This document shows positions 1 through 50,753 of a stretch of 64,000 nucleotides of DNA, piece by piece. Each line of letters starts with the position of its first letter. The stretch's first letter is position 1. The DNA is from Catenulispora sp. MAP5-51 (GTDB lineage: Bacteria; Actinomycetota; Actinomycetes; Streptomycetales; Catenulisporaceae), in assembly GCF_041261205.1 (NCBI RefSeq), contig NZ_JBGCCH010000045.1, forward strand, positions 1-64,000, read 5' to 3'. Position numbers and translations under genes: made by a program. The notes beneath the pieces were generated by a model. That model had not been told where the DNA came from. It did not search any database and saw only the letters and a list, made by a program, of their open reading frames with translations.

Positions 1-120
1 CTGCTGCACTGGTTCCGCCGCCTGCGCATCCGCTGGGAGATCCGCGACGACATCCACCAGGCCTTCCTCACGCTGGGCTGCGCCCTCATCTGCTGGCGAC
101 GACTCCGAACTCATCTTTGA
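1..120 (+). CDS. Transposase, IS5-type DDE family (C-terminal fragment)
   Basis: Frame 1 reads from the window edge to TGA at 118-120 and gives 39 residues, including LHWFRRLRIRWEIRDDIHQ and CALICWRRLR. This is the typical C-terminal end of IS5-group transposases, with the conserved W-F-R-R-L-R-I-R-W-E pattern beyond the catalytic glutamate. The protein would cut and rejoin DNA at the element ends. Only the tail is visible, so activity cannot be judged. The gene runs towards and slightly past the 3' end of the oppositely oriented TIG gene, whose stop codon at 111-113 lies inside this ORF. Confidence 0.75.
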   Translation: MLHWFRRLRIRWEIRDDIHQAFLTLGCALICWRRLRTHL

Positions 121-133
121 TAGGAGTCCTTAG
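1..133 (+). mobile_element. Right end of an IS5-type insertion sequence
   Basis: The window opens inside an insertion sequence. The last 39 codons of its transposase are visible, and the element probably ends about 10 bases after the stop. The sequence at 130-133 is TTAG, which fits the YTAR target preference of IS5-group elements (family knowledge). The junction falls within the 3' end of the neighbouring minus-strand TIG-repeat gene. The terminal inverted repeat cannot be confirmed because the left end lies outside the window. Confidence 0.7.
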
Positions 134-896
134 TGGGGGAAAGGCCGGCGACGGTCGGCGGCGGGACGTAGAAGTAGAACGCCCCGTTGCTGGTGCCTCC
201 GGTGGTGACCACCGTGACGGCGACCGGCGCCACGGGAGCCGGCGGTGCGGTGGCGGTGATCTGGGTCGAGCTGACCACTGTGAAGGACGCTGCCACCGTA
301 CCGAAGAACACGCTGGTCGCCCCTGTGAACCCGGTCCCCGTGAGCGTGACCGTGTTCCCTCCGATGCTCGGACCCTGCGTCGGACTGAGACTGCTGATCA
401 CCGGCGCCGACACGTAGGTGTAGGAGGCGCCGCTGCTCGTCCCGCCCGGCGTCGTCACCGTCACCGCTACCGCGCCGGTGCCCGCGGGGGCCGTGGCGGT
501 GATCTGGGTGGCGCTGTTCACCGTGAACGACGCCGATGCCGAACCGAACGAAACGGTGGTGGCGCCGGTGAATCCGGTCCCTGTGATGGTGACCGTGTTC
601 CCGCCCGCGGCCGGTCCGTTCGTGGGATTGATGCCGCTGATGACCGGCGCCGCGACGTAGGTGTAGGTCACTCCGTTGCTGGTCCCGCTCGGCGCCGTGA
701 CGGTCACCGACACCGCTCCGGAGCCGGCTGGTGCGGTGGCGTTGATCGTCGTCGAGCCGGCGACGACGAAGGACGCCGAGGCCGAACCGAACTTCACCGC
801 CGTCGCGCCGGTGAAGCCGGTCCCGGTGAGGGTGACGGCCGTGCCTCCGGCGGTCGGGCCTTGGACGGGGCTGATGCTGCTGATGACTGGCGCCAT
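111..896 (-). CDS. IPT/TIG repeat protein, 3' end truncated by IS
   Basis: 261 residues starting at ATG 896 (MAPVISSISPVQGP) with a GAAGGA ribosome site eight bases upstream; the longer upstream reading frame has no such site. It holds three IPT/TIG immunoglobulin-like modules of about 83 residues, each opening with ISxxxPxxGPxxGG and containing TGTGFTGAT and YTYV. A fourth module begins (PTVAGLSPT) but breaks off into KDSYQR, which is encoded by insertion-sequence DNA, so the native protein was longer. No signal peptide or membrane segment is seen, which is odd for a domain normally found outside the cell. Function unknown; the fold suggests a structural or adhesive protein. The divergent neighbour is a paralogue. 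Confidence 0.75.
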   Translation of the reverse strand: MAPVISSISPVQGPTAGGTAVTLTGTGFTGATAVKFGSASASFVVAGSTTINATAPAGSGAVSVTVTAPSGTSNGVTYTYVAAPVISGINPTNGPAAGGNTVTITGTGFTGATTVSFGSASASFTVNSATQITATAPAGTGAVAVTVTTPGGTSSGASYTYVSAPVISSLSPTQGPSIGGNTVTLTGTGFTGATSVFFGTVAASFTVVSSTQITATAPPAPVAPVAVTVVTTGGTSNGAFYFYVPPPTVAGLSPTKDSYQR

Positions 897-939
897 GGTG
901 CGATTCCTTCGTGAGAGCCCAAGGCCGGTGGATCTAGCT

Positions 940-1101
940 ACTTTCAGTAGTCCTCGCAGGTCACCGGGCTGCAAGAGGGTCCCGTCGAAATCACCCTTTC
1001 GTGGGTCGGGCACCAGCCTCCGGTGGATCGCCGGTCGCTCGATGGAGTGATTTCGGGTCCGAACTCTTGTCGCCCTGTGACCTGCGAGGACTACTGAAAG
1101 T
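940..1101. promoter_or_regulatory. Mirrored divergent promoter region with 25-bp inverted repeat
   Basis: Positions 940-964 and 1077-1101 are perfect 25-bp inverted copies (one arm contains GTGACCTGCGAGGACTACTG). Farther towards the centre, a second, looser pair matches: GTGATTTCG, then GGTCC/GGACC-like bases, then CTCTTG, in each gene's own orientation. Each divergent TIG gene therefore has the same upstream sequence in the same place. A possible -35/-10 pair in both copies is TTG(C/T)xG, 17 bases, ACTACT. The simplest reading is a duplicated promoter kept with duplicated genes, driving matched expression. Promoter activity itself is inference. Confidence 0.65.
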
Positions 1102-1204
1102 GACTGATCAGTCTCTCCATCGCGCACCACCCGGCGGCCGGCGGCAGCAGCCAGCCCGCTGCTCTCCGCGTCGTGCGTCAGCCCACTGCGAGGGAGCAAC
1201 GTCC

Positions 1205-1948
1205 ATGCCGATCTCTCCGAACCAGGGATCCACCGGTGGCGGGACCACCGTCACCATCACCGGCGTCAATCTCGCCGGTGCCACCGCCGTGAACTTCGGC
1301 ACCAAGCCGGCCACCATCACCGCGAACACGCCCACCGCGATCACCGTCGTCTCGCCGTCCGGCGCCGGAGAAGTCTCGGTGACCGTGACCACGGCGGGCG
1401 GCACCAGCAACCCGCTTCCGTTCTTCTACGTGGGAGCGCCGTTCAAGGCCGCTGTGAGCGCGACCTCCGGGCCGACGGCCGGCGGGAACACCGTCAGCAT
1501 CACCGGCATCGGGCTCGCGACGACGACCGAGGTCGCCTTCGGTGCCAACAGCGCGACGCCGACCATCGTCTCCGACGGCCAGATCGACGTGGTCGTGCCC
1601 GCGGGCACCTCGGCGGGGTCGGTCGGCATCACGGTCACCACCGCCGGCGGGAGCAGCAACGGGCTGTCGTACACGTATGTGGACGCCCCCACGGTCTCCA
1701 GCATCAGCCCGACCGAGGGTCCGACCTCCGGGGGCACGGCGGTGACGGTCACCGGCACCAACCTCGCCACCACCCAGTCGGTCACCGTCAACGGAAGCAC
1801 GGCGCCGTTCACGGTCGTCAACAGTTCCGAAGTCTCCATCGTCACCCCGCCCGGCTCCGCCGGGGCCGCCGACGTGGTGGTCACCACCACCGGCGGCGCC
1901 GCCACCGCGTTGGGCGGCTACACCTACGTGGCCGGTCCTGGAATCTGA
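1205..1948 (+). CDS. IPT/TIG repeat protein
   Basis: 247 residues from ATG 1205, preceded by GAGGGAG ten bases upstream. Three consecutive IPT/TIG modules (about residues 1-80, 81-165 and 166-247), each starting near SPxxGxxxGG and ending in a YTYV or FFYV strand. It is a paralogue of the divergent gene and shares its promoter. There is no signal peptide, lipobox or transmembrane segment. TIG modules normally mediate protein-protein or carbohydrate contacts in extracellular or DNA-binding proteins; here no other domain gives a clue. Followed by a strong hairpin at 1973-2002. Confidence 0.8.
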   Translation: MPISPNQGSTGGGTTVTITGVNLAGATAVNFGTKPATITANTPTAITVVSPSGAGEVSVTVTTAGGTSNPLPFFYVGAPFKAAVSATSGPTAGGNTVSITGIGLATTTEVAFGANSATPTIVSDGQIDVVVPAGTSAGSVGITVTTAGGSSNGLSYTYVDAPTVSSISPTEGPTSGGTAVTVTGTNLATTQSVTVNGSTAPFTVVNSSEVSIVTPPGSAGAADVVVTTTGGAATALGGYTYVAGPGI

Positions 1949-2011: not shown

Positions 2012-2536
2012 CTACGACCCGTGATGCGGGCCGGAATTGTAGATGTTGTAGACGTTGTACGTGTTGTGGATATTGTAGATGTAGTGGTCTTCGACGTTCA
2101 CGTTCACCAGACCGCCGCACGCCAACAGGCACAGCCCGGGCACCCCGGACGACGGCGCCGCCGTCACATCGACCGTGGTCGTGCTGTTCGACGCGTCGCA
2201 GTTGCCGTTCCCGTTGTACGCGGCCGTGATCGTGTGCGTCCCGGTCGTGGTGAAGCTGGTCGGGTACGTCGCCGTCCCGTCCGCCGCCACGGGCACCGTG
2301 GCCAGCAGGTTCGCGCCGTCGAAGAACGTCATGCCCAGGCCGCCGCTCGGGTCCCCGGCGCAGGTCACCGTCGCGTCCAGAGCCACGGCCTGCCCGCTGG
2401 CCGCCGACGAGGGCACCGCCTGGACCGACGTCGAGGAGAGCACCTGGGCGACGGCCGGTGCGGCGAAGGCCACCCATGCCGATACGGTGAGGGCGAGGGT
2501 TGTCCCGACACCCCGTCTTTGCCGGCTTCGCAACAC
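2012..2536 (-). CDS. Secreted bacterial Ig-like protein with Asn/Tyr-rich tail
   Basis: 174 residues from GTG 2536, with AAGGAG six bases upstream. Residues 1-31 are a clear Sec signal peptide (RSRQRR, then a hydrophobic stretch ending AFAAPAVAQ). Residues 33-128 resemble a Big_3-type Ig-like domain, with GxAVxLxATV, TFFDG and GTHTITAAYNGNG motifs and two cysteines. The last 35 residues contain a cysteine pair (GLCLLACGG) and then a low-complexity stretch with repeating YN dipeptides (NTYNVYNIYN). Probably a wall or extracellular protein; function unknown. Confidence 0.75.
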   Translation of the reverse strand: MLRSRQRRGVGTTLALTVSAWVAFAAPAVAQVLSSTSVQAVPSSAASGQAVALDATVTCAGDPSGGLGMTFFDGANLLATVPVAADGTATYPTSFTTTGTHTITAAYNGNGNCDASNSTTTVDVTAAPSSGVPGLCLLACGGLVNVNVEDHYIYNIHNTYNVYNIYNSGPHHGS

Positions 2537-2741
2537 ACGAGCTCCTTGGTCCGCGGGATTCTTCGGCGCGATCAGCGCGCTTCAATGTACGACGACGCGG
2601 CGCCGATCCCGGAAAGCCGTTGATGCGCAACGCGGCCGGGTCACAGAATTCACTCGAACGGCCTTAGGGGCTCCCGCGCGGCTTCACCCGTTAGCCCTAG
2701 CTTTGGATAAGTCGGGCCGCACTCTGCCCATAACTTCAACC

Positions 2742-3698
2742 ATGAGATTCGCTTTCCCCGAGGACCGACACCCCACCGCGCGCCGCGTCGCCCGGTGGGG
2801 TGTCGCTCCGCTGCTCCTCGCGGCCGCCGTCGGCGTCAGCGCCACGGCCTTCGCCTCGGCTTCCGTGGTCGGCACCAGGGCTCCGGCCTCCGCCTCCGCC
2901 CCCGCTTCCGCCGTGCGCATCCAGTGGCCCGGTTCCGGGCAGTCCGCGGTCGCCGTCGACGGCCACGGCCTGCTCGGCATCTCCGGCGCGGTGACCCGGC
3001 CGCACCCGACCGCCAGCGTGGCCAAGGTGATGGACGCCTACCAGGTCCTGCTCGACCACCCGATCGGCGTGCGCGACGCCGGCCCGACGATCACCGTTCT
3101 GCCTTACGAGGCCGCCGCCTACCGTGCGGCGATCCACAGCGGGCAGACGCTTGTCGCGGTCGCGAGCGGCGAACGGATCAGCGAGCGCAAGGCTCTGGAG
3201 GCGATGCTCCTGCCGTCCGGGAACAACATGGCAAGGATCCTGGCCCGCTGGGATGCCGGCAGCATCAGCCGGTTCCTGGCGCGGGAGAACGCGACCGCGG
3301 CCCGGCTGGGGATGCGGCGGACGCATTTCACCGACCCGGCCGGCGTGGACTCCCGGACCGTCTCCACCGCCCCGGACCTGATCCGGCTGGACGAGGCCGC
3401 GATGGCGGTGCCCACCTTCGCGCAGGTCGTCGGCGAGACCTCGGCGCGGGTGCCGGTCGCCGGAGTCGTGCACAACCACAACCGCCTGCTCGGGCGGGAC
3501 GGCATGCTCGGTGTGAAGACCGGTTGGACCGGTGCCGCCGGCGGGTGCCTGATGTTCGCCGCCAGGGTGCAGGGCGCCAGGTCGCACACGTATCACATGG
3601 TGTACGGGGTGGTGCTGGGCCAGTCCGGTCCGCCGCCGGCCGGCCGGGCCTTCGACGCGGCGGTCCGGCTGATCGCCGGGGCGCGTGCCAACCTGTAG
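2742..3698 (+). CDS. D-alanyl-D-alanine carboxypeptidase (peptidase S11)
   Basis: 318 residues from ATG 2742. An N-terminal membrane-spanning or signal segment lies at about residues 19-42, followed by an Ala/Ser-rich linker and the penicillin-binding S11 domain. The catalytic triad motifs are complete: S92-V-A-K95, S159-G-N161 and K259-T-G261. The enzyme would trim the terminal D-Ala from peptidoglycan stem peptides outside the membrane. The upstream reading frame extends further, but ATG 2742 directly precedes a normal signal sequence. A paralogue with the same motif layout lies on the opposite strand at 4629-5528. A hairpin terminator follows. Confidence 0.88.
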   Translation: MRFAFPEDRHPTARRVARWGVAPLLLAAAVGVSATAFASASVVGTRAPASASAPASAVRIQWPGSGQSAVAVDGHGLLGISGAVTRPHPTASVAKVMDAYQVLLDHPIGVRDAGPTITVLPYEAAAYRAAIHSGQTLVAVASGERISERKALEAMLLPSGNNMARILARWDAGSISRFLARENATAARLGMRRTHFTDPAGVDSRTVSTAPDLIRLDEAAMAVPTFAQVVGETSARVPVAGVVHNHNRLLGRDGMLGVKTGWTGAAGGCLMFAARVQGARSHTYHMVYGVVLGQSGPPPAGRAFDAAVRLIAGARANL

Positions 3699-4628: not shown

Positions 4629-5528
4629 CTACAACCTCGCGCGGGCCGCTCTCACCATCCGGGCGGCGGTGGTGAAGACCGCCCCGGATTTCGGCCCGCC
4701 GGGCTGGCCGAGCAGCACTCCGTAGACCATGTGCACGTCGCCGCGCCGGTCCGTCTCGCGGGCGGTGAACATCAGGCACTGGCCGGCCGGGGTGGTCCAG
4801 CCGGTCTTGGTGCCGATGAAGCCGCCGGTGCCGACCAGGGGGTTCGAGGTGTGGACCGTGCCGGCCGCCGGCACCGTGGCCGACCTCTCGCCGACGACGC
4901 CCGCCAGCACCGGGTTCGCCATCGCGGCCTGGTCCAGCAGTAGCTGGTCGGGGGCCGTGGAGACGGTCCCGGTGTCGACGCCGGCCGGATCGGCGTAGTG
5001 CGTCCGGCTCATGCCCAGGCCCGCCGCGGTGGCGTTCATCCGGGCCGCGAAGCCGCCGACGCTGCCCGCGTCCCAGCGGGCCAGCAGCCGGGCGATGTCG
5101 TTCGCCGAGGGCAGCAGCATCGCCTCCAGCGCCTTGTGCTCGGTGATCCGCTCGCCGGCGGCCACCGGGATCACGGACTCGCCGCCGCGCCGCGCCGCCC
5201 GGTAGGCGGCGGCCTCCGAGGCCGAGACCGTGATCGTCGGGCCCTGATCGCCGGGGCGCAGCGGATGGTCCAGCAGGACCTGGTAGGCGGTCATGATCTT
5301 GGTGACGCTGGCGATGGGCTGCGGCGTGCCCACCGGGCCGCTCGCCGCGCGGTGGCCGTCGACGGCCAGCGCGGCCTGGCCGTTCGGCGGAAAGGGGATG
5401 CCGTTGCCGTTGCCGTCGGCCCTGCCGGCGGTGGCGTGGACCGGCGCCGCGAGGACGGCGGGAAGGGCGGCCAGCAGCGCGGCGGTGCCCCAGCGTGCGG
5501 CGCGGCGCCGGAGAGTCGAGGTGTGCAT
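4629..5528 (-). CDS. D-alanyl-D-alanine carboxypeptidase (peptidase S11)
   Basis: 299 residues from ATG 5528. The N-terminus (TLRRRAARWGTAALLAALPA) is a signal peptide ending near residue 33. The S11 catalytic motifs are S74-V-T-K77, S141-A-N143 and K241-T-G243. It is clearly a paralogue of the enzyme at 2742-3698 (shared MTAYQVLLDHP, ALEAMLLPS and RWDAGS segments). Expected to act outside the membrane on peptidoglycan stem pentapeptides. It shares a divergent intergenic region with the L,D-transpeptidase gene, so the two cross-link-editing activities may be co-regulated (inference). Confidence 0.88.
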   Translation of the reverse strand: MHTSTLRRRAARWGTAALLAALPAVLAAPVHATAGRADGNGNGIPFPPNGQAALAVDGHRAASGPVGTPQPIASVTKIMTAYQVLLDHPLRPGDQGPTITVSASEAAAYRAARRGGESVIPVAAGERITEHKALEAMLLPSANDIARLLARWDAGSVGGFAARMNATAAGLGMSRTHYADPAGVDTGTVSTAPDQLLLDQAAMANPVLAGVVGERSATVPAAGTVHTSNPLVGTGGFIGTKTGWTTPAGQCLMFTARETDRRGDVHMVYGVLLGQPGGPKSGAVFTTAARMVRAARARL

Positions 5529-5701: not shown

Positions 5702-6274
5702 ATGCTCGAAACTTCAGGTTCCGCCACTTCGGTTCCGGCGCGAGGGCTACAGCGGCTCTGTCGGTCACAGCGGCTCCGGCGCCCGGCCGGGGCGCGCCGC
5801 CTCATGGCGTGTCTGGCCGTGTGCACGGCTCTGGTCGCCAACGCGGCGCCGGCCCCCGCCCAGGCCGCCGAGGCCGCTGCGGCTGCCGGGACAAGGGTCT
5901 CTCCCCACTGCCCGCAGCTGGCCCGCAAGGTCGTGTGCGTCGACCAGGACCACCAGCAGCTGTGGGTGCAGCAGGGCAAGAAGATCATCTTCCCGGTGGT
6001 GCGGATCCGGACCGGCATGCCCGGCCGCCGGACCCCGGACGGGCTGTTCCACATCTGGCTGCGCAACCAGCACCAGTACTCGTACCTGTTCCACGAGCCC
6101 ATGCCCTTCAGCCTCTTCTTCCACCGCGACTTCGCTCTGCACGGGACCTACGCGGACGTGCGCAAGGGCGGGTCCAACGGCTGCGTGAACCTGACGGTCG
6201 CCGACTCCAAGAAGATCTTCTCGATGCTGGGCCTCGGCGACGCGGTCTACGTCTGGGGCCACAAGCCCCGGTGA
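5702..6274 (+). CDS. L,D-transpeptidase (YkuD family)
   Basis: 190 residues from ATG 5702; an internal ATG at 5804 just before the hydrophobic segment is the alternative start, but then the positive n-region (LRRPAGARR) would be lost. A signal segment lies at residues 36-55, ending PAPAQA. The YkuD catalytic motif is present: H147-G-T, then 11 residues, S158-N-G-C161-V-N, with the catalytic cysteine C161. The enzyme would form 3-3 cross-links in peptidoglycan or anchor proteins. It is short for the family and has no added Ig-like or LysM domain. The downstream RND operon starts 59 bases after the stop. Confidence 0.82.
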   Translation: MLETSGSATSVPARGLQRLCRSQRLRRPAGARRLMACLAVCTALVANAAPAPAQAAEAAAAAGTRVSPHCPQLARKVVCVDQDHQQLWVQQGKKIIFPVVRIRTGMPGRRTPDGLFHIWLRNQHQYSYLFHEPMPFSLFFHRDFALHGTYADVRKGGSNGCVNLTVADSKKIFSMLGLGDAVYVWGHKPR

Positions 6275-6332: not shown

Positions 6333-9300
6333 ATGCGCTGGATCATCGCCTCAAGCGTCCGGCTCGCGGCGGTCCTGGCGGCCGCCGCGGCCGTCCTGCT
6401 CGTGGTCGCCGTCGTCGGGCTGCGCCATGCGCCGGTCGACGTGCTGCCGGAGTTCACGCCGCCGCGGGTCCAGGTGCAGACCGAGGCGCTGGGCCTGTCG
6501 GTCAGCGAGGTCGAGCAGCTGATCACGGTGCCGTTGGAGGACGAGTTCAACGGCCTGGCCTTCCTGGACCGCATCCAGTCGGCCTCGCTGCCCGGGCTGA
6601 GCGTCATCGACCTCTCCTTCAAACCCGGGACCGACGTCTACCGCGCGCGCCAGCTGCTCACCGAGCGCGTGTCCCAGGGCCCCGCGCTGGTCGCGGTCGG
6701 AACCCCGCCGGTGATGATCCAGCCGCTGTCGGTGCAGGCCCGGGCCACGGCGGTGTCGCTGTCCTCGGCCACGATGGCGCCCACCGATCTGTCGACGGTG
6801 GCGCGCTGGCGGATCCGGCCGCGGCTGCTGGCCGTGCCCGGGGTGGCCAACGTCGTGCTCTGGGGCCAGCGGGACCAGCAGTTGCAGGTGCTGGTCGATC
6901 CGGCGCGGATGAACGGCCGGGGCGTGACGCTGAACCAGGTGATCAACACCGCCGGCGACGCCATGTGGACCTCGCCGCTGACCTTCGTCGAGGCGGCCTC
7001 GCCGGGGGCGGACGGTTTCATCGACGCTCCCAACCAGCGGCTCACGATCCAGCATCTGCTGCCCATCAAGACCCCCGCCGACCTGGCCGCGGTCCCGATC
7101 GAGGACACCAAGGGGCAGCCGGTCATGCTGCGGGACGTGGCCACGGTGATCGCGGACCACCCGCCGCTGCGCGGTGACGCGGTCCTGAAGGACGGCCCCG
7201 GTTTCCTGCTCGTCGTGGAGAAGCTGCCGGGCGCCGATCCGGTCAAGGTCGCCAACGGCATCAAGGCCGCCCTGGCCGAGCTCGCGCCCGGGCTCCCGGG
7301 CATCACCGCGGACACCGGCGTCTTCGAACCCGCCACCTATCTGCACAGCGCGCTGGTGCACCTCGGCTGGACCGCGCTGGCCGCCGCGGTGCTGCTGGCG
7401 CTGTGGTTCGGTCTCTGCTGGCGTTCCTGGCGAGTGCTGCTCGTCGCGCTGGCCGGGACCGTGCTGCCGCTGGCCGCCGCGGTGTACGTGCTCTACCTCC
7501 TGGGCGCCACGTTCACGGTGATGACGCTCGTCGGCCTGGCGGCGGCGCTCGGCGTGGTGGTGGACGACGCGGTCCGCACCACCGAGGCCTTGCGAAGCGC
7601 CGGCCGCGAGGAGGCGGATGACGCGGGCGACGCGGCCGGTGCAACCATCGCTGCTGGTGCCGCCAGCGCGGCCGGTGCAGCCAACGCCGCCGACGCGATC
7701 GATGCCGTCGTCGCCGTGCGCCGCCCGCTGGGCTTCGCGCTCGTCGCGCTCGTCCTGGCGACGATCCCGATCCTGGCGTTGACCGACCAGGCCGGCGGGC
7801 TGGCCCGGCCGATGATCGGCGCCTACCTGTCCGCGGTGGTGGCCGCGGCGCTGGTCGCGATCACGCTGATCCCGGCGCTGGCGCATTTGGTTCTCCGGCG
7901 TGCGGTTCCGCGTCGCCGGGTGCCTCGGCTGCGGCATGCCTATGACTCGGTCCTGGCCGTGTTCACGAAGAACGCCGCCGCGCTGTTCGGCACAGCCGCG
8001 GTTCTGCTCGTGGGCTGCGTCCTGGTCATCCCGCAGTTCGGGAGCCGGCCGCTGATCCCGGCGATGCAGGAGCGCAGCCTGCTGGTGCGCTGGCAGGCGC
8101 CGGCCGGGACCTCGCTGACCGCGATGCAGCAGACCGCGGCCTCGGCCGGCCGATCGCTGCTCGCCGTGCCGGGCGTGACCGACGTGGCCAGCGACATCGG
8201 CCAGGCCCTGCTCGGCGACCGTCCCGTCGATGTGGACTCCGCACAGACCTGGATCACGGTGTCCTCGAAGGCTGATTACGGCGCGGCCAAGTCGGCGGTC
8301 GCCCGGGTCCTCGACGGCTATCCCGGTGTCGGGCACACGCTGCTCACCTTCACCGAGGCCGCGCTGGCGGACAACCGCACCCGGAACGGCCCGCCGGTGC
8401 GGGTCCGGCTGTACGGCACCGACCCGGCGGCCCTGGCCACGACGGCCGAGACGCTGCGGCAGACGGTGTCCGGCGTACGCGGGGCGGCGGACGCGGCGGT
8501 CCGGACACCGGCGACGGAACCCTCGATCCAGATCGCGACGAACGTCGACGCCGCCGCGGCACAGGGGCTCAAACCCGGCGACGTCCGGCGCGCCACGGCC
8601 GTCCTGATCGCCGGCATCCCCGTCGGCAGCTACTACCAGCAGCAGCAGATCTTCGACGTCGCCGTGTGGAGCGAGCCGGGGATGCGCGGCGATCTGTCCG
8701 CGATCGGGAACCTGCCGCTGGACACGCCCAGCGGCGGCCAGGTCCCGCTGAAGGACGTCGCGACCGTGTCGATGCAGCCCGCCCCCGCCGAGATCGACCA
8801 CGACCAGGCCTCCCGCTTCATCGACGTCACGGCGGACGTGCCCGGCGGGGACGTGCGGGGGACCGTGGACCGGGTCCGGGGCGCCGTCAAGAACCTCGCC
8901 CTGCCGGTCGGATACCACGTCGAGGTGTCCAGCGACGTGGTGCTGAACCAGAACAATGATCGCAGAACCTTGATTTACGTGGCCTTCGTCGCCGTCGGCG
9001 TCTTCCTTCTGCTCCAAGCGGCGCTGCGCGGCTGGCGGCGGGCCCTGCTGCTGTTCTGCGCGCTCCCGCTCGCCCTGGCCGGCGGTGCGGTGACCGCGCC
9101 GATCGCGGGCGGCCCGCTGACCGTCGGGTCGCTGGTCGGCTTCCTGGCGGTGTTCGGTTTCGCGGTCCGGGCGGGCCTGGTGGTGATGCGTGAGATGCAG
9201 GCAACGGGTGCTGCGCGGAAGTCTGTCTTCCCGACCGTGGTGAGCGCCGCGGGGTGGGCGCTGGTGTCCCTGCCGTTCGTGGTCGTCGGCGACATCGCCG

Positions 9301-9461
9301 GGATGGAGGTGGTGCGGCCGCTGGCCCTGGTCGTGCTGGGCGGCATGGTGACCACCCTGCTGGTGACCCTGGTTCTGCTGCCGGCGGCGTACCTCCGGTG
9401 GTTCGCCGGCGACGTCGTGGATGACGCAGCCCGGCCGGCCGGCGGGCCGGCGGTGCCGTGA
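6333..9461 (+). CDS. Heavy-metal-type RND efflux permease (CusA/CzcA-like)
   Basis: 1042 residues. The N-terminus matches RND permeases: a first membrane helix (about residues 8-30), then VDVLPEFTPPRVQVQTEALG and EVEQLITVPLE, then the first periplasmic-type loop, a helix cluster near residues 340-530 with GVVVDDAVRTTEALR, a second large loop and a final helix bundle to about 1020. CusA/CzcA relatives export divalent metals or act in cation/proton antiport. In the helix containing the usual VDDAIV motif, the sequence is VDDAVRTTEA. An Ala-rich insertion (GATIAAGAASAAGAANAADA) follows at about 433-452. First gene of an RND-lipoprotein-RND operon, with a 4-bp overlap (GTGA) into the lipoprotein gene. 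Confidence 0.85.
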   Translation: MRWIIASSVRLAAVLAAAAAVLLVVAVVGLRHAPVDVLPEFTPPRVQVQTEALGLSVSEVEQLITVPLEDEFNGLAFLDRIQSASLPGLSVIDLSFKPGTDVYRARQLLTERVSQGPALVAVGTPPVMIQPLSVQARATAVSLSSATMAPTDLSTVARWRIRPRLLAVPGVANVVLWGQRDQQLQVLVDPARMNGRGVTLNQVINTAGDAMWTSPLTFVEAASPGADGFIDAPNQRLTIQHLLPIKTPADLAAVPIEDTKGQPVMLRDVATVIADHPPLRGDAVLKDGPGFLLVVEKLPGADPVKVANGIKAALAELAPGLPGITADTGVFEPATYLHSALVHLGWTALAAAVLLALWFGLCWRSWRVLLVALAGTVLPLAAAVYVLYLLGATFTVMTLVGLAAALGVVVDDAVRTTEALRSAGREEADDAGDAAGATIAAGAASAAGAANAADAIDAVVAVRRPLGFALVALVLATIPILALTDQAGGLARPMIGAYLSAVVAAALVAITLIPALAHLVLRRAVPRRRVPRLRHAYDSVLAVFTKNAAALFGTAAVLLVGCVLVIPQFGSRPLIPAMQERSLLVRWQAPAGTSLTAMQQTAASAGRSLLAVPGVTDVASDIGQALLGDRPVDVDSAQTWITVSSKADYGAAKSAVARVLDGYPGVGHTLLTFTEAALADNRTRNGPPVRVRLYGTDPAALATTAETLRQTVSGVRGAADAAVRTPATEPSIQIATNVDAAAAQGLKPGDVRRATAVLIAGIPVGSYYQQQQIFDVAVWSEPGMRGDLSAIGNLPLDTPSGGQVPLKDVATVSMQPAPAEIDHDQASRFIDVTADVPGGDVRGTVDRVRGAVKNLALPVGYHVEVSSDVVLNQNNDRRTLIYVAFVAVGVFLLLQAALRGWRRALLLFCALPLALAGGAVTAPIAGGPLTVGSLVGFLAVFGFAVRAGLVVMREMQATGAARKSVFPTVVSAAGWALVSLPFVVVGDIAGMEVVRPLALVVLGGMVTTLLVTLVLLPAAYLRWFAGDVVDDAARPAGGPAVP

Positions 9462-9919
9462 CCACCGCCGGCACCGGGCGCCGGTCCGCCGTCGCGGCGT
9501 CGGCGGCGCGCCTGGGCGCACTCCTCGCGACCGTCGTGGCCGGCGCCGGATGCTCGCGCCAGAGCGAGGCCGCCACGCCCGCGCCCGCGGCGATCCTGGT
9601 CCCGGTGCCCGGATCCGCGCGGCCCGTTGTGAAGCTGAGCGAGGCGGCTTTCCAGGCTGTGCGGGTCCAGACCGTGACCGTCGATGCCGCCTCGGCCGGC
9701 ATGGTGATCCCGACGACGGCCGTCATCTACAGCCCGGACGGCGCGGCCTGGACCTACGTGCGCCTCACACCGCGGTCCTATGTGCGGCGCGCCATCGTCA
9801 TCGACCACATCACCGGGACCGAGGCCTTCCTCAGCTCCGGCCCGGCGGTGGGCACGCCGGTGGTGGCCATCGGCGCGCCCGAACTGCTCGGCACCGAGTA
9901 CGGCGTGGGAGAGGAGTGA
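9458..9919 (+). CDS. Miniature RND adaptor lipoprotein
   Basis: 153 residues from GTG 9458, overlapping the upstream stop by four bases. A lipobox VAGAGC marks a lipoprotein signal at residues 1-31. The mature part begins with PVVKLSEAAFQAVRVQTVTV and jumps to VIPTTAVIYSPDGAAWTYVR, then ends in LGTEYGVGEE. These segments resemble the first strand region and the C-terminal membrane-proximal domain of RND membrane-fusion proteins (CusB/HlyD type), while the lipoyl and helical-hairpin parts are absent. It would sit on the outer face of the membrane and contact the RND loops. The small size suits a cell with no outer membrane to bridge (inference). Confidence 0.65.
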   Translation: MTTAGTGRRSAVAASAARLGALLATVVAGAGCSRQSEAATPAPAAILVPVPGSARPVVKLSEAAFQAVRVQTVTVDAASAGMVIPTTAVIYSPDGAAWTYVRLTPRSYVRRAIVIDHITGTEAFLSSGPAVGTPVVAIGAPELLGTEYGVGEE

Positions 9920-9942
9920 GGACCTTGACCCGTCCCACGGTC

Positions 9943-12900
9943 ATGCGCGCGATCGTCTCATGGAGCCTGACCTACCGGTTCCTGGTCGTGGCGGCGGCGG
10001 TCGCGCTGATGGCCTTCGGGGCGAGCGCGATCCGCTCCAGCGCCGTCGATGTCTTCCCGGAGTTCGCACCCCCGCAGGTGGAGATCCAGACCGAGAGCCT
10101 GGGCCTGTCCACCTCCGACGTCGAGTCGCTGGTGACGGTCCCGCTGGAGCTGGCGATGAACGGCATGCCCGGGCTGGACCAGCTGCGCTCGACCTCGGTG
10201 CCGACGCTGTCGTCCATCGTCATGGTCTTCAAGCCCTCGACCGACCTGCTGCACGCCCGGCAGCTGGTGCAGGAGCGGCTGGCCACGGTGCGCCCGACGC
10301 TGCCCAAGTGGGCCTCGCCGCCGGTCATGCTGCCGCCGGTGTCGGCGACCGCGCGGGTCGTGCAGATCGGCATGGTCGGGCCCGGATACTCCATCCAGGA
10401 CCTGTCCCGGCTGGCGCTGTGGCGGGTCAAGACGCGGCTGATGGCCGTGGCCGGCGTGGCCGACGTGTCGATCTGGAACGAACAGCAGCCGACCTTCCAG
10501 GTCCAGGTGGACCCGGCCAAGCTGGCCGCCGCGCACGCGAGTCTGGACGAGGTCGAACGCACCACCTCCGACGCGCTGGACTCCGGGGCCCTCACGTTCT
10601 CCAACGGCAGCGTCGTCGGCGCCGGCGGCTTCCTGGACGCCGGGGCCCAGCGGTTGCAGATCGGCCACCAGCTGTCGGTGTCCAGTCCGGCCGAACTGGC
10701 CAAGGTCCCGCTGGAAGACCACGCCGCAGCCGGCTCCCTGGTGCCGCTGAGCACGGTCGGTCCGGTCTTGCGCGACAGCCTGCCGCCGATCGGCGACGCC
10801 GTCATCAACGGCAAACCGGGGCTGCTGCTGGTGGTCGAGAAGCTGCCGTGGGGCGACACCCTGAAGATCACCTCGGGCGTGCAGGCGGCGCTGGACCAGT
10901 TGCGGCCGGGCCTGCCGGGCATCGGCTTCGACAGCACCATCTTCCGGCCGGCGACGTTCATCGACTCCTCGATCGACGGCCTGCGCACCTCGCTGCTGAT
11001 CGGCTTCGCGCTGGTCACCGTGATCCTGGTGCTGTTCCTGTTCGAGTGGCGGGTGGCCCTGATCAGCCTGCTGACGATCCCGATGTCGCTGGTGGCGGCC
11101 CTGGTGGTGCTGCACCTCGCCGGCGCCACCATCAACACCATGATCCTGGCCGGGCTGATCATCGCCCTCGGCGCGGTCGTCGACGACGCGATCATCGACG
11201 TCGAGAACATCCTGCGCCGGCTGCGCGAGGCCCGGGCGGCCGGCAGCCCGACGCCGGCCGCCCGGATCATCCTGGAGGCCTCGCTGGAGGTCCGCTCGCC
11301 GATCGTCTACGCGACGCTGATCATCGTGGCGGCCGCCGTCCCGGTGTTCCTGCTGCACGGACTGACCGCGGCGTTCTTCCGGCCGCTGGCGCTGGCCTAC
11401 ACCCTGGCGATCGTGGCGTCGCTGTGCGTCGCGCTGACCCTGACCCCGGCCCTGACCCTGATCATGCTGCGCCGCGCCCCGCTGCGGCGCGGACCCTCGC
11501 CACTGGTCCGGTGGCTCCAGCGCGGCTACACGGGCCTGCTGGCCCGCATCGTGCACCGCCCGGCCGCCGCCTACTCGATGTTCGCCCTCGCCGTCGTCGC
11601 CGGCGCCCTGATCGTCCCGCAGCTGGGCCAGTCGCTGTTCCCCACCTTCAAACAGCGGGACCTGCTCATCCACTTCGACGCCATCCCCGGCACCTCGGAC
11701 ACCGAGATGGTCCGCGCCACCACGATGCTGTCCCAGCGGCTCCAGGCCATCCCCGGCGTGCGCAGTTTCGGCGCGCACATCGGCCGGGCCCGCGGCGGTG
11801 AGGAGGTGGTCGGCATCGACGCCGCAGAGGCCTGGATCAGCACCGATCCCAAGGCGGACTACGACAAGGTGGTCGGGCAGGTGCGCGACGTCGTGAACAC
11901 CTATCCCGGGATGTACCGGGACGTGGAGACGTATCTCAACGAACGCATCGAGGAGGTCTTGTCCGGGTCCCGGCAGGCGGTGACCGTCCGTGTCTACGGA
12001 CAGGATCTCGACCGGATGCGCACCACGGCGACCGACGTCCTGAACCAGGTGACGCAGGTGCGCGGCGTGCAGGACCCGCACATGGACATCTCCGTGGACA
12101 CCCCGCAGATCCAGATCGAGGTGGACCTGGCCAAGGCCGCCGCGGTGGGACTGAAACCGGGCGACGTGCGGCGGCAGGCCGCGGCGGTGGTGGCCGGCCA
12201 GGAGATGGGCAACATCTTCATGAACAGCGAGGTCTACGGCGTCTACGTCTGGAGCGTCCCGGCGGCCCGCGGCAGCACGAGCGCGATCGCGGACATGCCC
12301 CTGAGTACCCCCGCCGGCAACCAGGTCCGGCTCGGCGACATCGCCGCGGTCAGCATGCGCAGCGACCCCTACCGCGTGACGCGCGACGGGAACTCCCGCT
12401 ATCTGGACGTGAGCACCGACGTGAAGGGACGCGACCTCGGAGCCGTCGCCAACGACATCCGCAAACGGCTGGGCACCGTCGCGATGCCGGCCGGAATGCA
12501 CTACGCGCTCCTCGGCGAGTACAAGGAGCGGCAGAGCGCCCAACGCACACTGCTCACCGCGGCGATCGCGGCCGGCATCGCGATCCTGCTGCTGCTCCAG
12601 CTCTCTTTCAACTCCTGGCGCCTGGCCGCGCTGCTGTTCGTGACCCTCCCGATGGCCCTGGTGGGCGGCATCATCGCGATCGCCATGGGCGGCGCCGTCA
12701 TCACCATCGGCGCCCTGGTCGGCTTCTTCACGGTGTTCGGCATCGCCGCCCGCAACGGCATCCTGCTGATCAACCACTGCCAGCACCTCGAACACCGCGA
12801 GGGCATGGACTTCGGCCCGGAGCTGGTGGTCCGCGGCGCGCGCGAGCGGCTCTCACCCATCTTGATGACCTCGCTGGCCACCGGCCTGGCCCTGGTCCCG

Positions 12901-13065
12901 CTGGTGGTGCGCGGCAACCTGCCGGGCCACGAGATCGAGTACCCGCTGGCGGTGGTGATCCTGGGCGGGCTGGCCACCTCGACGCTGCTGACGTTGTTCG
13001 TCGTGCCCTCGCTGTATCTGCGGTTCGGGCACGGGCACGGGCACCGGCGGCGTGAGCGGTCGTGA
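9943..13065 (+). CDS. Heavy-metal-type RND efflux permease (CusA/CzcA-like)
   Basis: 1040 residues from ATG 9943, chosen because MRAIVSWSLTYRFLVV aligns with the RND N-terminus; TTG 9925 and GTG 9916 have better ribosome sites (GAGGAG), so the true start may be slightly upstream. Motifs include VDVFPEFAPPQVEIQTES, LVTVPLE, GAVVDDAIIDVENILRRLRE (the canonical RND helix-4 signature) and a GFFTVFGIAARNGILL segment near the C-terminus. It is closer to the family consensus than the permease at 6333-9461. The last residues are GHGHGHRRRERS, His-rich. It probably forms a mixed or alternative pump with the first permease and the small lipoprotein. Confidence 0.87.
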   Translation: MRAIVSWSLTYRFLVVAAAVALMAFGASAIRSSAVDVFPEFAPPQVEIQTESLGLSTSDVESLVTVPLELAMNGMPGLDQLRSTSVPTLSSIVMVFKPSTDLLHARQLVQERLATVRPTLPKWASPPVMLPPVSATARVVQIGMVGPGYSIQDLSRLALWRVKTRLMAVAGVADVSIWNEQQPTFQVQVDPAKLAAAHASLDEVERTTSDALDSGALTFSNGSVVGAGGFLDAGAQRLQIGHQLSVSSPAELAKVPLEDHAAAGSLVPLSTVGPVLRDSLPPIGDAVINGKPGLLLVVEKLPWGDTLKITSGVQAALDQLRPGLPGIGFDSTIFRPATFIDSSIDGLRTSLLIGFALVTVILVLFLFEWRVALISLLTIPMSLVAALVVLHLAGATINTMILAGLIIALGAVVDDAIIDVENILRRLREARAAGSPTPAARIILEASLEVRSPIVYATLIIVAAAVPVFLLHGLTAAFFRPLALAYTLAIVASLCVALTLTPALTLIMLRRAPLRRGPSPLVRWLQRGYTGLLARIVHRPAAAYSMFALAVVAGALIVPQLGQSLFPTFKQRDLLIHFDAIPGTSDTEMVRATTMLSQRLQAIPGVRSFGAHIGRARGGEEVVGIDAAEAWISTDPKADYDKVVGQVRDVVNTYPGMYRDVETYLNERIEEVLSGSRQAVTVRVYGQDLDRMRTTATDVLNQVTQVRGVQDPHMDISVDTPQIQIEVDLAKAAAVGLKPGDVRRQAAAVVAGQEMGNIFMNSEVYGVYVWSVPAARGSTSAIADMPLSTPAGNQVRLGDIAAVSMRSDPYRVTRDGNSRYLDVSTDVKGRDLGAVANDIRKRLGTVAMPAGMHYALLGEYKERQSAQRTLLTAAIAAGIAILLLLQLSFNSWRLAALLFVTLPMALVGGIIAIAMGGAVITIGALVGFFTVFGIAARNGILLINHCQHLEHREGMDFGPELVVRGARERLSPILMTSLATGLALVPLVVRGNLPGHEIEYPLAVVILGGLATSTLLTLFVVPSLYLRFGHGHGHRRRERS

Positions 13066-13199
13066 GGCGCCGGCTTGACAGAGAAGGCACCTGAATGGCG
13101 GACATCGTGGGCCCACCTGTGTCTGTGGCCTCCGAAAAGGCCTACATTCTTCTATGTCAAGTCATGATCGAACATCTATGCGTAGAGATGGAGCAGGCC

Positions 13200-13595
13200 A
13201 TGACCGAACACCCGCACATCGCTCTCGTCCGCCGCGGCTACGAGGCCTTCAACAAGGGTGACGTGGACACCCTGAGACAGATCATCGCCAATGACTGCGT
13301 CCAGCACGTCGGCGGGGACAGCCAGGTCTCCGGCGAGTTCAAGGGCGTCGACGCCATGCTCGCCTACTACGGGCAGCTGGCCGAACTCACCGGCGGCACC
13401 TTCCGCGCCGAGCCGGAGCTGTACTCCACGGACGGAAACGGACACGTCATCGTCGTCCACCACCTCACCGCCACCCGCGGCGACAAGTCGCTCGACCAGC
13501 GGGGCGCGCTGCTCTTCCAGATCACCGGCGACAAGGCCGTCGACCTGCTGCAGTGTGACGTGGACCTCGAGGAGTCCGACCGGTTCTGGAGCTGA
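13200..13595 (+). CDS. SnoaL-like (NTF2-fold) protein
   Basis: 131 residues from ATG 13200, preceded by GGAG six bases upstream. An upstream in-frame ATG at 13095 has its own GAAGG, but the added 35 residues do not look like a protein of this family. MTEHPHIALVRRGYEAFNKG and the DxxxLRQIIANDCVQHVGG and FKGVDAMLAYYGQLAELTGG segments are typical of SnoaL-like NTF2-fold proteins. Family members are polyketide cyclases, isomerases or stress-associated proteins of unknown substrate; no catalytic pair can be assigned here. Ends in a hairpin terminator facing the convergent small secreted gene. Confidence 0.75.
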   Translation: MTEHPHIALVRRGYEAFNKGDVDTLRQIIANDCVQHVGGDSQVSGEFKGVDAMLAYYGQLAELTGGTFRAEPELYSTDGNGHVIVVHHLTATRGDKSLDQRGALLFQITGDKAVDLLQCDVDLEESDRFWS

Positions 13596-28299: not shown

Positions 28300-30738
28300 T
28301 CAGGAACCTGCGAGCACGCCGGTCGCGGAGATCTCCGCCGCGCTCGTCCAGGGGCCGCGGCTGCCGGCTTCGGTGAGGGCTCGCAGGCGCAGGTAGCGGC
28401 CGGTCGCGGAGCCCAGGAACACGGTCTTCGGCGCTGCGGTGTCCGGGAAGGTTCCGGTGGCCACGGCGCTGCCCCAGGCGGTCGGGGAGTCCGAGACGTA
28501 GATCTCGTAGGCGCCGATGCGGCCGTCGGCGTTGCCGTCCTGGCGGGGGAGGTAGCCGACGCCGTCGAGCTGGTGGCGGGCGCCGAGGTCGATCTGGATC
28601 TCGTGGGGGAGGGGGTCCCCCGGCGCCGGAGACCACCGCGAGTGCCAGATCGTGGCGGCGTTGCCGTCGAAGGCGTTGGTGGCCGCTCCGTTCTCGGCGA
28701 CGAGTTCCTGGCTGTCGACGTGGACGAGCTTCCAGCCGGAGACCGGGATGGCCGCGCTGGTGAGCATCGCGTGCAGGGTGATCGGCGCGGGGGTGGTCTG
28801 GTGCAGGTCGAAGACGAGGATCTCGTTGGTCCCGGCCGTGAGCCACTCCGCCGGGCAGTAGAGCCGCTGCTGGGGGCCGATCTCCCAGTACCTGCCGAGG
28901 TTGTGGCCGTTGACCCAGACCACGCCTTTGGTCCATGCGGACAGGTCCAGGTAGGTGTCGCCGGGCGCGGTCAGGGTGAGGGCGGCCTTGAAGAAGATCC
29001 CGGGGCGGTGGGCGTCGGTCACCGTGTTCTTCAGGGTACTGATGAACGTGTCGTCCATCGGCAGCGAGTAGACCTGCCAGCCGGTGAGGGTGCCGGTCAG
29101 CGAGCCGGCGTTCTGGAGGGCGACGGTTTGCAGGATCCCCTTGCGATCGACGATCGCGTGTCCGTAGTTGGTGCGTCCGAGCCCCTCGACCAGGATGTCC
29201 ATCCGGGGACTGCCGCCGATCGCGGTGCCGGTGGGCAATGTCAACGGAGCGTTGGCGGTCGCGATGTTCAAAGCGCTGGTGACGGCGGCCGGGAGGGTCT
29301 GCCGGTACAGGCCTCCGGCGTAGGCGCCGTTGAGGCAGACCGTCGCGTAGTCGTGCACCCACTGGATGGCCAGCTGCCCGCCGGAGTAGCCGGACAGCTG
29401 CTTGCTGTACAGGATGAAGCCGGAGTTCTGCCCGTAGGTCTCCATCGGCTGCGGGTTCACCGTCTGCGCCGCCGGAAGGGGCGCCGGCAGGTTGTCCCAG
29501 ATCGAGGCGTACGCGACCGGGGTGATCTGACCGGTCCCGGAAGCGATCGTCGGGACCGGCGCCGGGACGGCCGGCGGCGGGCTGCTCAGGTACCCCGATA
29601 TCAGGGTGCGGTATTCGCTGTACCGGGGTGTGGCGGCGCCCTGTTCGGTGATCGGGGCGGCATAGTCGTAGCTGGTGATGTCCGGCTGGTAGTCGCCGGA
29701 CTGGTCGTCGGCGTTGGCGCCCGCGAAGAAGCCGAAGCTCGTGCCGCCGTGGACCATGTAGAGGTTGAAGGACAGGCCGGCCGCCATCAGGGCCTTGAGG
29801 GTGCCGGAGATGTCGTTGCCGGTGCCCTGGAACGTGCTGTCGCCCCAGTGCGTCAACCAGCCCGGATAGACCTCTCCGGCCATCGCCGGTACCGCGGGGA
29901 ACGCCTGACGGGCCGACGCGATCTGCGCGGCGTCGCCGCCGGACAGGGCTATCGCACCGCCGGTCACATTCGTCTTGTTGCCCTCCACCTGCGACAGGCC
30001 GTCCTCGGTGTAGAAGGGCCCGGTGATGCCGTTCGCGATCCAGGCCTGCCGGATCTCCTCCAGATAGGCGGCGTCGCTGCCGAAGGACCCGTATTCGTTC
30101 TCGATCTGCACCATCAGGATCGGGCCGCCGGCCGCCGTCATCAGAGGTTTGACGATCGGCGCGAGATGGGCGATGTACCGGTTCACGGCGGCCATGTAGT
30201 GCGGATCGGTGGCGGAGTTCACCCGCAGCTGGACGTCCGGATAAGCCAGCAGGTACGGAGGCAGACCACCGAGATCCCACTCGCCGCAGACATACGGCCC
30301 GCCGCGCAGCAGAACCCACATTCCCTCCTGCTGGCACAGTTGTACGAACGCTGCGATGTCCCGGCGGTCGGTGGTGAAATCGAAGACTCCGGGGGACTCC
30401 TCGATGTAGTTCCACATGACGTAGATCGACACCGCGTTCAGCCCCATGGCCTTCGCCATCTGGATCCGATGACGCCAGTGCTGGACGGGGATGCGCGCCG
30501 GGTGCATCTCGCCGGAGCGGATCTGGAACGGCTTGCCGTTCATCAGGAACGCGCTGCCATCGGGGGCGAACCCGAAGGTCGTGCCGGAGGTCGTACCGGA
30601 CGTGGTAGCGGACGTGGTAGCGGACGTGGTACCGGACGTGGTACCGGAGGCCGTCGCGCCGAGAGCCGGGGTGGCCGACATCGCGGCGGCGGCGCTGAGC
30701 ATGCTGACGGACAGGAAGGAGCGGCGGTTCACGGGCAT
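28300..30738 (-). CDS. Beta-galactosidase, GH35, with C-terminal discoidin-type module
   Basis: 812 residues from ATG 30738. The N-terminus VNRRSFLSVSMLSAAAAMSA is a Tat-type signal (RRxFL), followed by an SGTTSATT repeat linker at residues 31-54. The GH35 domain (about 55-370) has RSGEMHPARIP, GGPYVCGEWDLGGLP and MVQIENEYGSFG, with acid/base E215 and nucleophile E289 (MAGEVYPGW). Jelly-roll domains follow, and residues 690-810 look like an F5/8 type C (CBM32-like) module (NAATIWHSRWS, GRYLRLRAL). The enzyme would release terminal beta-galactose from glycans outside the cell. Last gene of the GH95-GH29-GH35 run, four bases after the GH29 remnant. Confidence 0.87.
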   Translation of the reverse strand: MPVNRRSFLSVSMLSAAAAMSATPALGATASGTTSGTTSATTSATTSGTTSGTTFGFAPDGSAFLMNGKPFQIRSGEMHPARIPVQHWRHRIQMAKAMGLNAVSIYVMWNYIEESPGVFDFTTDRRDIAAFVQLCQQEGMWVLLRGGPYVCGEWDLGGLPPYLLAYPDVQLRVNSATDPHYMAAVNRYIAHLAPIVKPLMTAAGGPILMVQIENEYGSFGSDAAYLEEIRQAWIANGITGPFYTEDGLSQVEGNKTNVTGGAIALSGGDAAQIASARQAFPAVPAMAGEVYPGWLTHWGDSTFQGTGNDISGTLKALMAAGLSFNLYMVHGGTSFGFFAGANADDQSGDYQPDITSYDYAAPITEQGAATPRYSEYRTLISGYLSSPPPAVPAPVPTIASGTGQITPVAYASIWDNLPAPLPAAQTVNPQPMETYGQNSGFILYSKQLSGYSGGQLAIQWVHDYATVCLNGAYAGGLYRQTLPAAVTSALNIATANAPLTLPTGTAIGGSPRMDILVEGLGRTNYGHAIVDRKGILQTVALQNAGSLTGTLTGWQVYSLPMDDTFISTLKNTVTDAHRPGIFFKAALTLTAPGDTYLDLSAWTKGVVWVNGHNLGRYWEIGPQQRLYCPAEWLTAGTNEILVFDLHQTTPAPITLHAMLTSAAIPVSGWKLVHVDSQELVAENGAATNAFDGNAATIWHSRWSPAPGDPLPHEIQIDLGARHQLDGVGYLPRQDGNADGRIGAYEIYVSDSPTAWGSAVATGTFPDTAAPKTVFLGSATGRYLRLRALTEAGSRGPWTSAAEISATGVLAGS
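30581..30652. repeat. 12-bp tandem repeat inside the GH35 gene
   Basis: Six imperfect 12-base units related to GTAGCGGACGTG run from 30581 to 30652. They encode the SGTT/SATT linker between the Tat signal and the GH35 domain, so copy changes would alter linker length in frame. Confidence 0.7.
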
Positions 30739-30742
30739 CTCC

Positions 30743-32245: not shown

Positions 32246-32282
32246 GAGTACCTCCACGGTCGGCGAGGTTGCCTTGCGACGG

Positions 32283-35159: not shown

Positions 35160-35241
35160 GAGGTCTCCTGGCATGGGAGAGAACCGTTGGAGGAGAGGGG
35201 CTCGCTCGGCATCGAGGGAAATGGGCGAGCGCCGCAGCGGA

Positions 35242-50681: not shown

Positions 50682-50753
50682 GGGTGGATCATCCCAGGCC
50701 TGGGCCACGGCGTGGTCACGTCCGCTGACACTGCTGACACTGCGTCGGAGCGC

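Follow-up and report, generated by a model that had tools for sequence, protein, structure and literature searches.

Two RND permeases and a minimal membrane-proximal adaptor: a candidate exporter without an outer membrane channel

How might a resistance-nodulation-division (RND) pump operate when its genes encode two permeases, a very small adaptor and no channel? This question is raised by three adjacent genes in a 64,000-nucleotide stretch of DNA from Catenulispora sp. MAP5-51 (contig NZ_JBGCCH010000045.1, positions 1 to 64,000), here called the window. Permease A (6333..9461, +) has 1042 residues, the stub adaptor (9458..9919, +) is a putative lipoprotein of 153 residues with a GTG start, and permease B (~9925..13065, +) completes the trio. 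It is probable that the trio encodes an RND exporter without a channel, from a CusA/CzcA-like lineage, in which B is the motor, A is the pore or scaffold of an A-B mixed trimer and the stub, predicted to be a membrane-proximal (MP) domain alone, stimulates the permeases without bridging. The observed basis for this reading is the gene order, the predicted MP-only fold, the lack of a channel match in the genome, the two permease clades and their asymmetric conservation.

Membership of the RND family PF00873 was defined as a match over the Pfam gathering score (28 bits) along the whole protein, and both A (462 bits) and B (694 bits) pass. They are the only PF00873 proteins above the cut-off in the whole genome. 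The stub gene lies between them, and its GTG overlaps the stop codon of A by 4 bp. The frame of B is open back to an ATG at 9421. This long start was rejected on two grounds: the first residue of the PF00873 match lies 12 residues after 9922, just past an in-frame TTG at 9925, and the relatives start there. The TTG lies 5 bases past the stub stop codon and aligns with an ATG in two of three same-genus relatives; GTG 9916 and ATG 9943 are other possible starts. By direct reading, Cys32 of the stub follows a hydrophobic signal with a weak, atypical lipobox (Gly at -3), and a loose lipobox pattern is present in 72 of 77 homologous adaptor stretches. The mature stub counted from this putative lipidated residue (9551..9916, +) has 122 residues. 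These results bear out a preliminary description of the locus as two RND permeases flanking a small adaptor of about 120 mature residues.

The stub has no Pfam or NCBIfam match up to an E value of 1, and when five of its relatives were scanned with it, Pfam gave no match near the cut-off for any of the six. An AlphaFold model from 65 sequences has a pLDDT of 90.3 and a pTM of 0.82. Structural realignment superimposed the stub on ZneB (Z = 13.4, root mean square deviation (rmsd) 1.8, 95 residues) and CusB (Z = 13.4, rmsd 2.2, 96 residues), using residues from both ends of each chain. Adaptors or adaptor chains of pump complexes fill ranks 1-21 of the 36 rows shown, and the first unrelated row has Z = 3.7; this ranking realigns Foldseek's own matches and says nothing against other families. 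The MP domain of adaptors is described in a passage of PMC4338810 as assembled from both halves of the chain. Residues 12-119 of the stub model match MP domains, and the 122 mature residues lack barrel, lipoyl and alpha-hairpin domains. The model indicates that the two MP parts are joined directly with the middle of the adaptor gone, and identifies the stub as the predicted MP domain of an RND adaptor without barrel, lipoyl domain and hairpin.

Sequence comparisons gave a similar picture. A profile of stub relatives had 10 matches among PDB sequences, the first eight being pump adaptors (E = 0.0012 to 0.47), although one carries no more than the name 'putative efflux transporter'. Over 72 residues the window stub shares 39% identity with the C terminus of a Hymenobacter adaptor. 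Three plasmid-borne diderm adaptors retrieve stubs by sequence, that of the window at E = 3e-14 to 3e-10. The hhalign probability for the stub profile was 99% over 75 columns against the Hymenobacter adaptor; against CusB as a single sequence, E was 0.0016 yet the probability was 16%. The adaptor alignment (A3) contains the window stub and 64 of 77 adaptors; left out were eight longer forms (L107 and seven intermediates) and five repeat records (L106, L120, L136, L156 and L159), which are also excluded from the trees and residue counts. The AlphaFold model and the structural matches to ZneB and CusB agree with the initial proposal that the adaptor is reduced to its membrane-proximal part.

The assembly that holds the window (10.9 Mb; window G+C 70.8%) is 99.97% complete, and no PF02321 (TolC-family) match occurs anywhere in it, in accord with the first impression that a channel gene is missing. 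Of 14 genomes searched in the same way as controls, 7 gave a match. In the 79 locus records, whose named loci reach at most ~8 kb on each side, nothing matched a TolC profile built from four sequences. A full-length adaptor encoded elsewhere and serving the pair was considered and rejected. The genome has three HlyD_3 matches, two of which adjoin MacB/FtsX permeases by Pfam; the third lies by a glycosyltrans­ferase with no clear partner and leaves this exclusion incomplete. Four of the 79 records (L104:13897-15630, L147:14611-16371, L111:5796-7433 and L128:12535-14169) encode a long adaptor-like protein close to the trio, and because of this proximity it may act as a helper adaptor there. Pfam confirmed a peptidoglycan-binding domain in two of the four proteins.

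The trio was surveyed across actinobacteria. With two candidates scored per genome, 31 of 396 sampled Actinomycetota genomes matched A and 15 carried the stub. All 15 stub-bearing genomes had two RND matches, and the other 16 had one. Three of nine same-genus genomes have the trio. The order A-adaptor-B on one strand is found in 74 of 79 records (69 of 74 when repeats are excluded, 56 of 58 from a named collection), and four of the five exceptions (L074, L075, L085 and L109) are cut by contig ends. Within the genus, the ratio of nonsynonymous to synonymous substitution rates (six pairs per gene) is 0.25-0.35 for A, 0.12-0.24 for B and 0.22-0.63 for the adaptor, values that indicate purifying selection on all three genes. 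Chance or an annotation artefact was ruled out because the gene order recurs and all three genes are under purifying selection.

The 58 loci of the named collection include many from Arthrobacter and others from Cryobacterium, Lentzea, Rhizohabitans, Acidimicrobiia, Rubrobacteraceae, Nitriliruptorales and Chloroflexota. Further loci are labelled Rokubacteria, Gemmatimonadetes, Pirellulales, Trueperaceae, Phaeodactylibacter and Rhodoferax; these are mostly metagenome-assembled genomes and are taken at their labels. The trio records are mostly from Actinomycetota and Chloroflexota, with additional records labelled as diderms. Since such records (Rokubacteria, Gemmatimonadetes, Pirellulales, Trueperaceae and Rhodoferax by label) also contain the stub, the suggested adaptation to an envelope with a single membrane is too narrow a reading. 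An intact stub without permeases alongside was seen at L131:7974-8426, in an Arthrobacter strain that has the trio elsewhere (L140). ABC-2 exporter genes lie between A and the adaptor at L148:4983-7375 (by eye) and adjoin the trio at L107:12818-15273 (Pfam-confirmed).

The two permeases differ at the proton relay. Relay positions were taken from AcrB (D407, D408, K940, R971 and T978), and the counts cover open frames of at least 850 residues (66 A, 67 B), with shorter or broken copies (e.g. L109, L110 and L112) absent. The pattern D-D-R-R-T is present in all 67 B sequences and in 13 of the 66 A sequences; three TolC-linked permeases match it at every position. Window A reads D-D-R-S-S. It retains the Asp pair (411-412) and Arg946 in transmembrane helix (TM) 10, and Ser964 and Ser971 are the equivalents of AcrB R971 and T978. 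The TM2-6 region of window A is 181 residues long against a median of 166, and direct reading reveals an alanine-rich insertion (7605..7710, +) from residue 425 to ~460, just past TM4. A has the features of a relaxed, partly degenerate subunit, and B those of a conserved, presumed motor subunit.

Conservation by domain is also asymmetric. Mean identity in the membrane domain is 0.43 for A and 0.68 for B, and A is the less conserved in every pair of the 64 loci and of 27 dereplicated loci. The N-terminal periplasmic halves are conserved alike (A 0.65, B 0.64). The thumb loop is better conserved in A (0.69 versus 0.55), with A less conserved than B in 5% of pairs from the 27 dereplicated loci. 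For comparison, 13 single actinobacterial permeases have identities of 0.67 (membrane) and 0.46 (N-terminal half), and the three TolC-linked permeases have 0.60 and 0.65. The N-terminal docking domain has a median of 97 residues in both A and B, 11 more than the 86 in TolC-linked permeases. Between-locus distances of A and B correlate at 0.94 (64 loci), which is expected because the genes are inherited together. The division of labour first suggested for the permeases holds as far as sequence evolution shows, in that relay and domain conservation point to diverged roles.

In the proposed mechanism, the leading candidate for the proton-driven motor is B, with its complete relay. For a structural or conducting subunit, which B would drive, the leading candidate is A, its N-terminal pore-side half being constrained and its membrane half relaxed. 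A pore or scaffold role is assigned because the N-terminal periplasmic half, with the pore, docking and trimer-contact regions, is kept while the membrane domain and relay are relaxed. An A-B mixed trimer, which we infer by analogy with MdtB2C, would explain the conservation patterns of both permeases. The stub, presumably lipid-anchored, would sit on the periplasmic face of the permeases and stimulate or gate them, there being no channel for it to reach. In the relevant passage of PMC4338810, AcrA and MacA are described as having C-terminal domains critical for stimulating the transporter, and by analogy the stub may supply this contact. The exit point of the substrates would be the outer face of the membrane. 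A bolder form of the proposal, to which we give slightly less than an even chance, is a widespread exporter class with an obligate A-B trimer in which B alone moves protons, A is becoming a motor-less 'pseudo-permease' that supplies pore and docking surfaces, and the regulator is a natural minimal adaptor of one MP domain, stimulating the pump with no bridge to a channel.

Several observations weigh against the proposed mechanism. Window A retains both Asp of the relay pair, and across the A family the second Asp is kept in 65 of 66 and the TM10 Arg in 62 of 66 sequences, in addition to the 13 with the full pattern. Many A proteins may still move protons because these residues are kept in most of them. 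At the pair, ZneA carries a single Asp (aligned sequence VDG), and therefore losing one alone does not prove a dead motor. Relaxation of A extends to the C-terminal periplasmic half (0.48 versus 0.59 for B). The window stub has an atypical lipobox, and its top Foldseek match, ZneB, has E = 3.4e-3, with none at or below 0.001. A 150-row FastTree has B as one clade (support 100) with A paraphyletic around B and long branches flagged. Record L071 has two stubs (11946-12314 and 8244-8624), of which one precedes A and the other separates A from B, and the second stub before A also fits one stub per permease.

The most serious alternative, which we judge unlikely, is that each permease forms a homotrimer of its own, A and B sharing the stub but exporting different substrates. 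Both permeases keep full-length periplasmic domains with thumb loops of equal length; the 13 A proteins with a complete relay and the stub before each permease in L071 would also fit. Two independent pumps are harder to reconcile with the pairing in 74 of 79 records, where contig ends account for four of the five exceptions, and with an altered relay in 53 of 66 A sequences. An A pump working alone is hard to square with the data because in every locus pair its membrane domain is less conserved than that of B, a difference not shared by its N-terminal periplasmic half.

Genes adjoining the trio do not point to any clear substrate. Both permeases score below the cut-off of TIGR00914 (CusA/CzcA family, 701 bits; B 543, A 356), yet this is their best NCBIfam match, and their best solved relatives are ZneA and then CusA. 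The CusA methionine triad (M573, M623 and M672) is absent. B has His (67/67), Phe or Ala (50/17) and Glu (67/67) at these positions, and A has no Met among the listed residues covering 64, 66 and 60 of 66 sequences. The initial label of heavy-metal pump therefore stands for family resemblance and not for the methionine site or the family cut-off. An improbable alternative is that the stub is a periplasmic carrier handing a substrate, such as a metal ion, to the permeases and not a structural pump subunit; such a role has been described for parts of ZneB and CusB. Its gene does sit between two permeases resembling the heavy-metal efflux (HME) type, substrate-presenting roles are reported for HME adaptors in PMC4446572, and a laboratory-made 180-residue SilB construct joins an N-terminal metal site to an MP domain. 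The stub alignments contain no conserved cluster of Met, His or Cys; Cys1 alone among the cysteines is almost invariant, and conservation lies in the MP fold.

That the trio moves lipids or wall precursors in connection with the cell wall is very improbable. In favour of this alternative are the genes upstream of the trio in the window, an L,D-transpeptidase (YkuD; PF03734, 57 bits; 5702..6274, +) that ends 58 bases before A and a D-Ala-D-Ala carboxypeptidase (4629-5528, -) beside it. As in the window, all three same-genus loci have an L,D-transpeptidase homologue next to the trio, and members of both families were recognized by Pfam in the vicinity in those three loci. Neither protein has a homologue within the flanks of the other 75 of 79 records. 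The L,D-transpeptidase, correctly placed upstream of A in the preliminary description, is outside the general module because it is found beside the trio only within the genus. Pfam assigns the permeases to ACR_tran with no MMPL match, their best solved relatives are the pump proteins ZneA and CusA, and nothing found points to the lipid transport that had been suggested. A further D-Ala-D-Ala carboxypeptidase-like frame (2175-3698, +) in the window matches the 4629-5528 protein with 307 bits.

A decaying import, that is, an acquired diderm efflux operon now eroding, would account for the missing channel, the truncated adaptor, the partly degenerate A and the presence of the trio in only three of nine same-genus relatives, but it is scarcely credible given purifying selection on all three genes, the same reduced form kept across many families and several phyla, and an N-terminal half of A as conserved as that of B.

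The proposed channel-less exporter has relatives with a channel. Window B matched 3,351 plasmid records; plasmids of Methylomonas, Hymenobacter and Sphingobium, at 47-50% identity, are among the top matches listed. One region examined from each of these three plasmids has TolC, a longer adaptor (314, 409 and 325 aa, respectively) and one permease adjacent to one another; the single-permease, TolC-linked relatives in this work are all plasmid-borne. The stub as query matched 15 plasmid records at 42-50% query coverage, and the three regions inspected hold longer adaptors. Trio adaptors are of MP size in 69 of 77 cases. Seven of the 77 are longer (218-262 residues), occur in Rokubacteria- and Chloroflexi-labelled records and correspond by alignment to MP plus barrel. 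One was modelled (pLDDT 79.8, pTM 0.55); its 191-residue match to CusB (Z = 13.4, rmsd 5.1) is what a predicted MP plus barrel should give. Pfam scans of six longer adaptors and L107 (L149 was left out) gave sub-cut-off matches in two of seven, HlyD_3 both times. From their sequences, the seven look like intermediates of adaptor reduction.

A 48-row tree was calculated from 20 loci hand-picked for spread. A and B each fall on one side of a branch (support 100 and 99), A plus B has a support of 99, the TolC-linked permeases are outside A plus B, and Rokubacteria rows branch first in both halves. The tree suggests that A and B are two clades from one old duplication. The simplest history would be one duplication, channel loss and stepwise loss of adaptor domains. 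Trimming of the adaptor may have happened more than once because long forms are nested in Chloroflexota.

Another gene recurs near the trio. A secreted-looking family of ~300 residues with an IDNPWFPL-like motif is found in 33 of 79 records (29 of 74 after removal of repeats), often directly after B (e.g. L124:11691-12599, L119:11576-12421 and L154:11581-12483). Five members scanned had no Pfam match. Its protein is possibly a fourth partner, judging from this recurrence. It was rejected as a fourth operon member here; one query, in a search without a positive control, gave no match in the genome that holds the window. Directly after B in the window is a SnoaL-like protein (13095-13595, +) with no homologue in the other 78 records. 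The window also encodes a cation-efflux family protein (50085-50708, -) and two divergent, partly overlapping IPT/TIG-repeat frames at 111-1199 (-) and 1001-1948 (+); TIG is Pfam-confirmed in the second (3 stretches), and the repeats of the first were recognized by eye. Three carbohydrate-active proteins lie in a run at 28300-35174 (-): a GH35 beta-galactosidase, an F5/8 C-domain protein with a fucosidase match barely over the cut-off, and a GH95 protein with a ricin-type lectin domain.

No description of such an RND exporter class was found in the open-licence PMC literature searched, and known systems resemble it in part. Tripartite HME-type efflux (ZneCAB, CusCFBA and the plasmid TolC-adaptor-RND operons) has permeases nearest to those of the trio and adaptors, ZneB and CusB, whose MP domain has the fold of the stub. 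The trio differs in having two permeases and not one, and in lacking TolC, the barrel, lipoyl and hairpin domains and the CusA methionine triad. Naturally shortened RND adaptors are represented by BesA of Borrelia, which has no hairpin and whose MP domain matches the stub (Z = 9.4). BesA keeps the lipoyl, barrel and MP domains, according to PMC3807786, and works with the channel BesC, as noted in PMC4338810, whereas the stub retains MP alone. The 180-residue SilB construct (PDB 5a4g; Z = 7.9 over 74 residues) is likewise an MP domain without the middle of the adaptor, but it is artificial, has an added N-terminal metal site and was used for nuclear magnetic resonance. Adaptor roles beyond bridging are hard to test in AcrA and MacA pumps, where stimulation and bridging are coupled. 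In the trio, evolution appears to have kept only the transporter-adjacent domain while bridge and channel were lost, and its presence in named isolates of soil genera that are generally considered harmless (Arthrobacter, Lentzea and Cryobacterium) makes the mechanism testable.

The heteromeric RND pumps MdtABC and MuxABC also have two tandem permeases; those of the trio are found together and, in the 48-row tree though not in the FastTree, separate as the two sides of one duplication. A passage of PMC4338810 gives a proposed split in MdtB2C between a proton-driven and a substrate-binding subunit. The part of the PMC10872679 survey that treats tandem permeases places them only in HAE-1 Clade B, and Actinobacteria and Chloroflexi lie outside that survey. 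The A/B duplication is in another RND branch, and MdtABC has a full adaptor and TolC. Escherichia coli MdtB and MdtC both retain the relay residues, unlike most A proteins. The trio adds a permease pair, distinct from MdtBC, whose degenerating subunit can be traced residue by residue. If the bolder form of the proposal is correct, the heterotrimeric RND pump would have been invented twice independently, and the trio would have taken the arrangement further than MdtB2C has.

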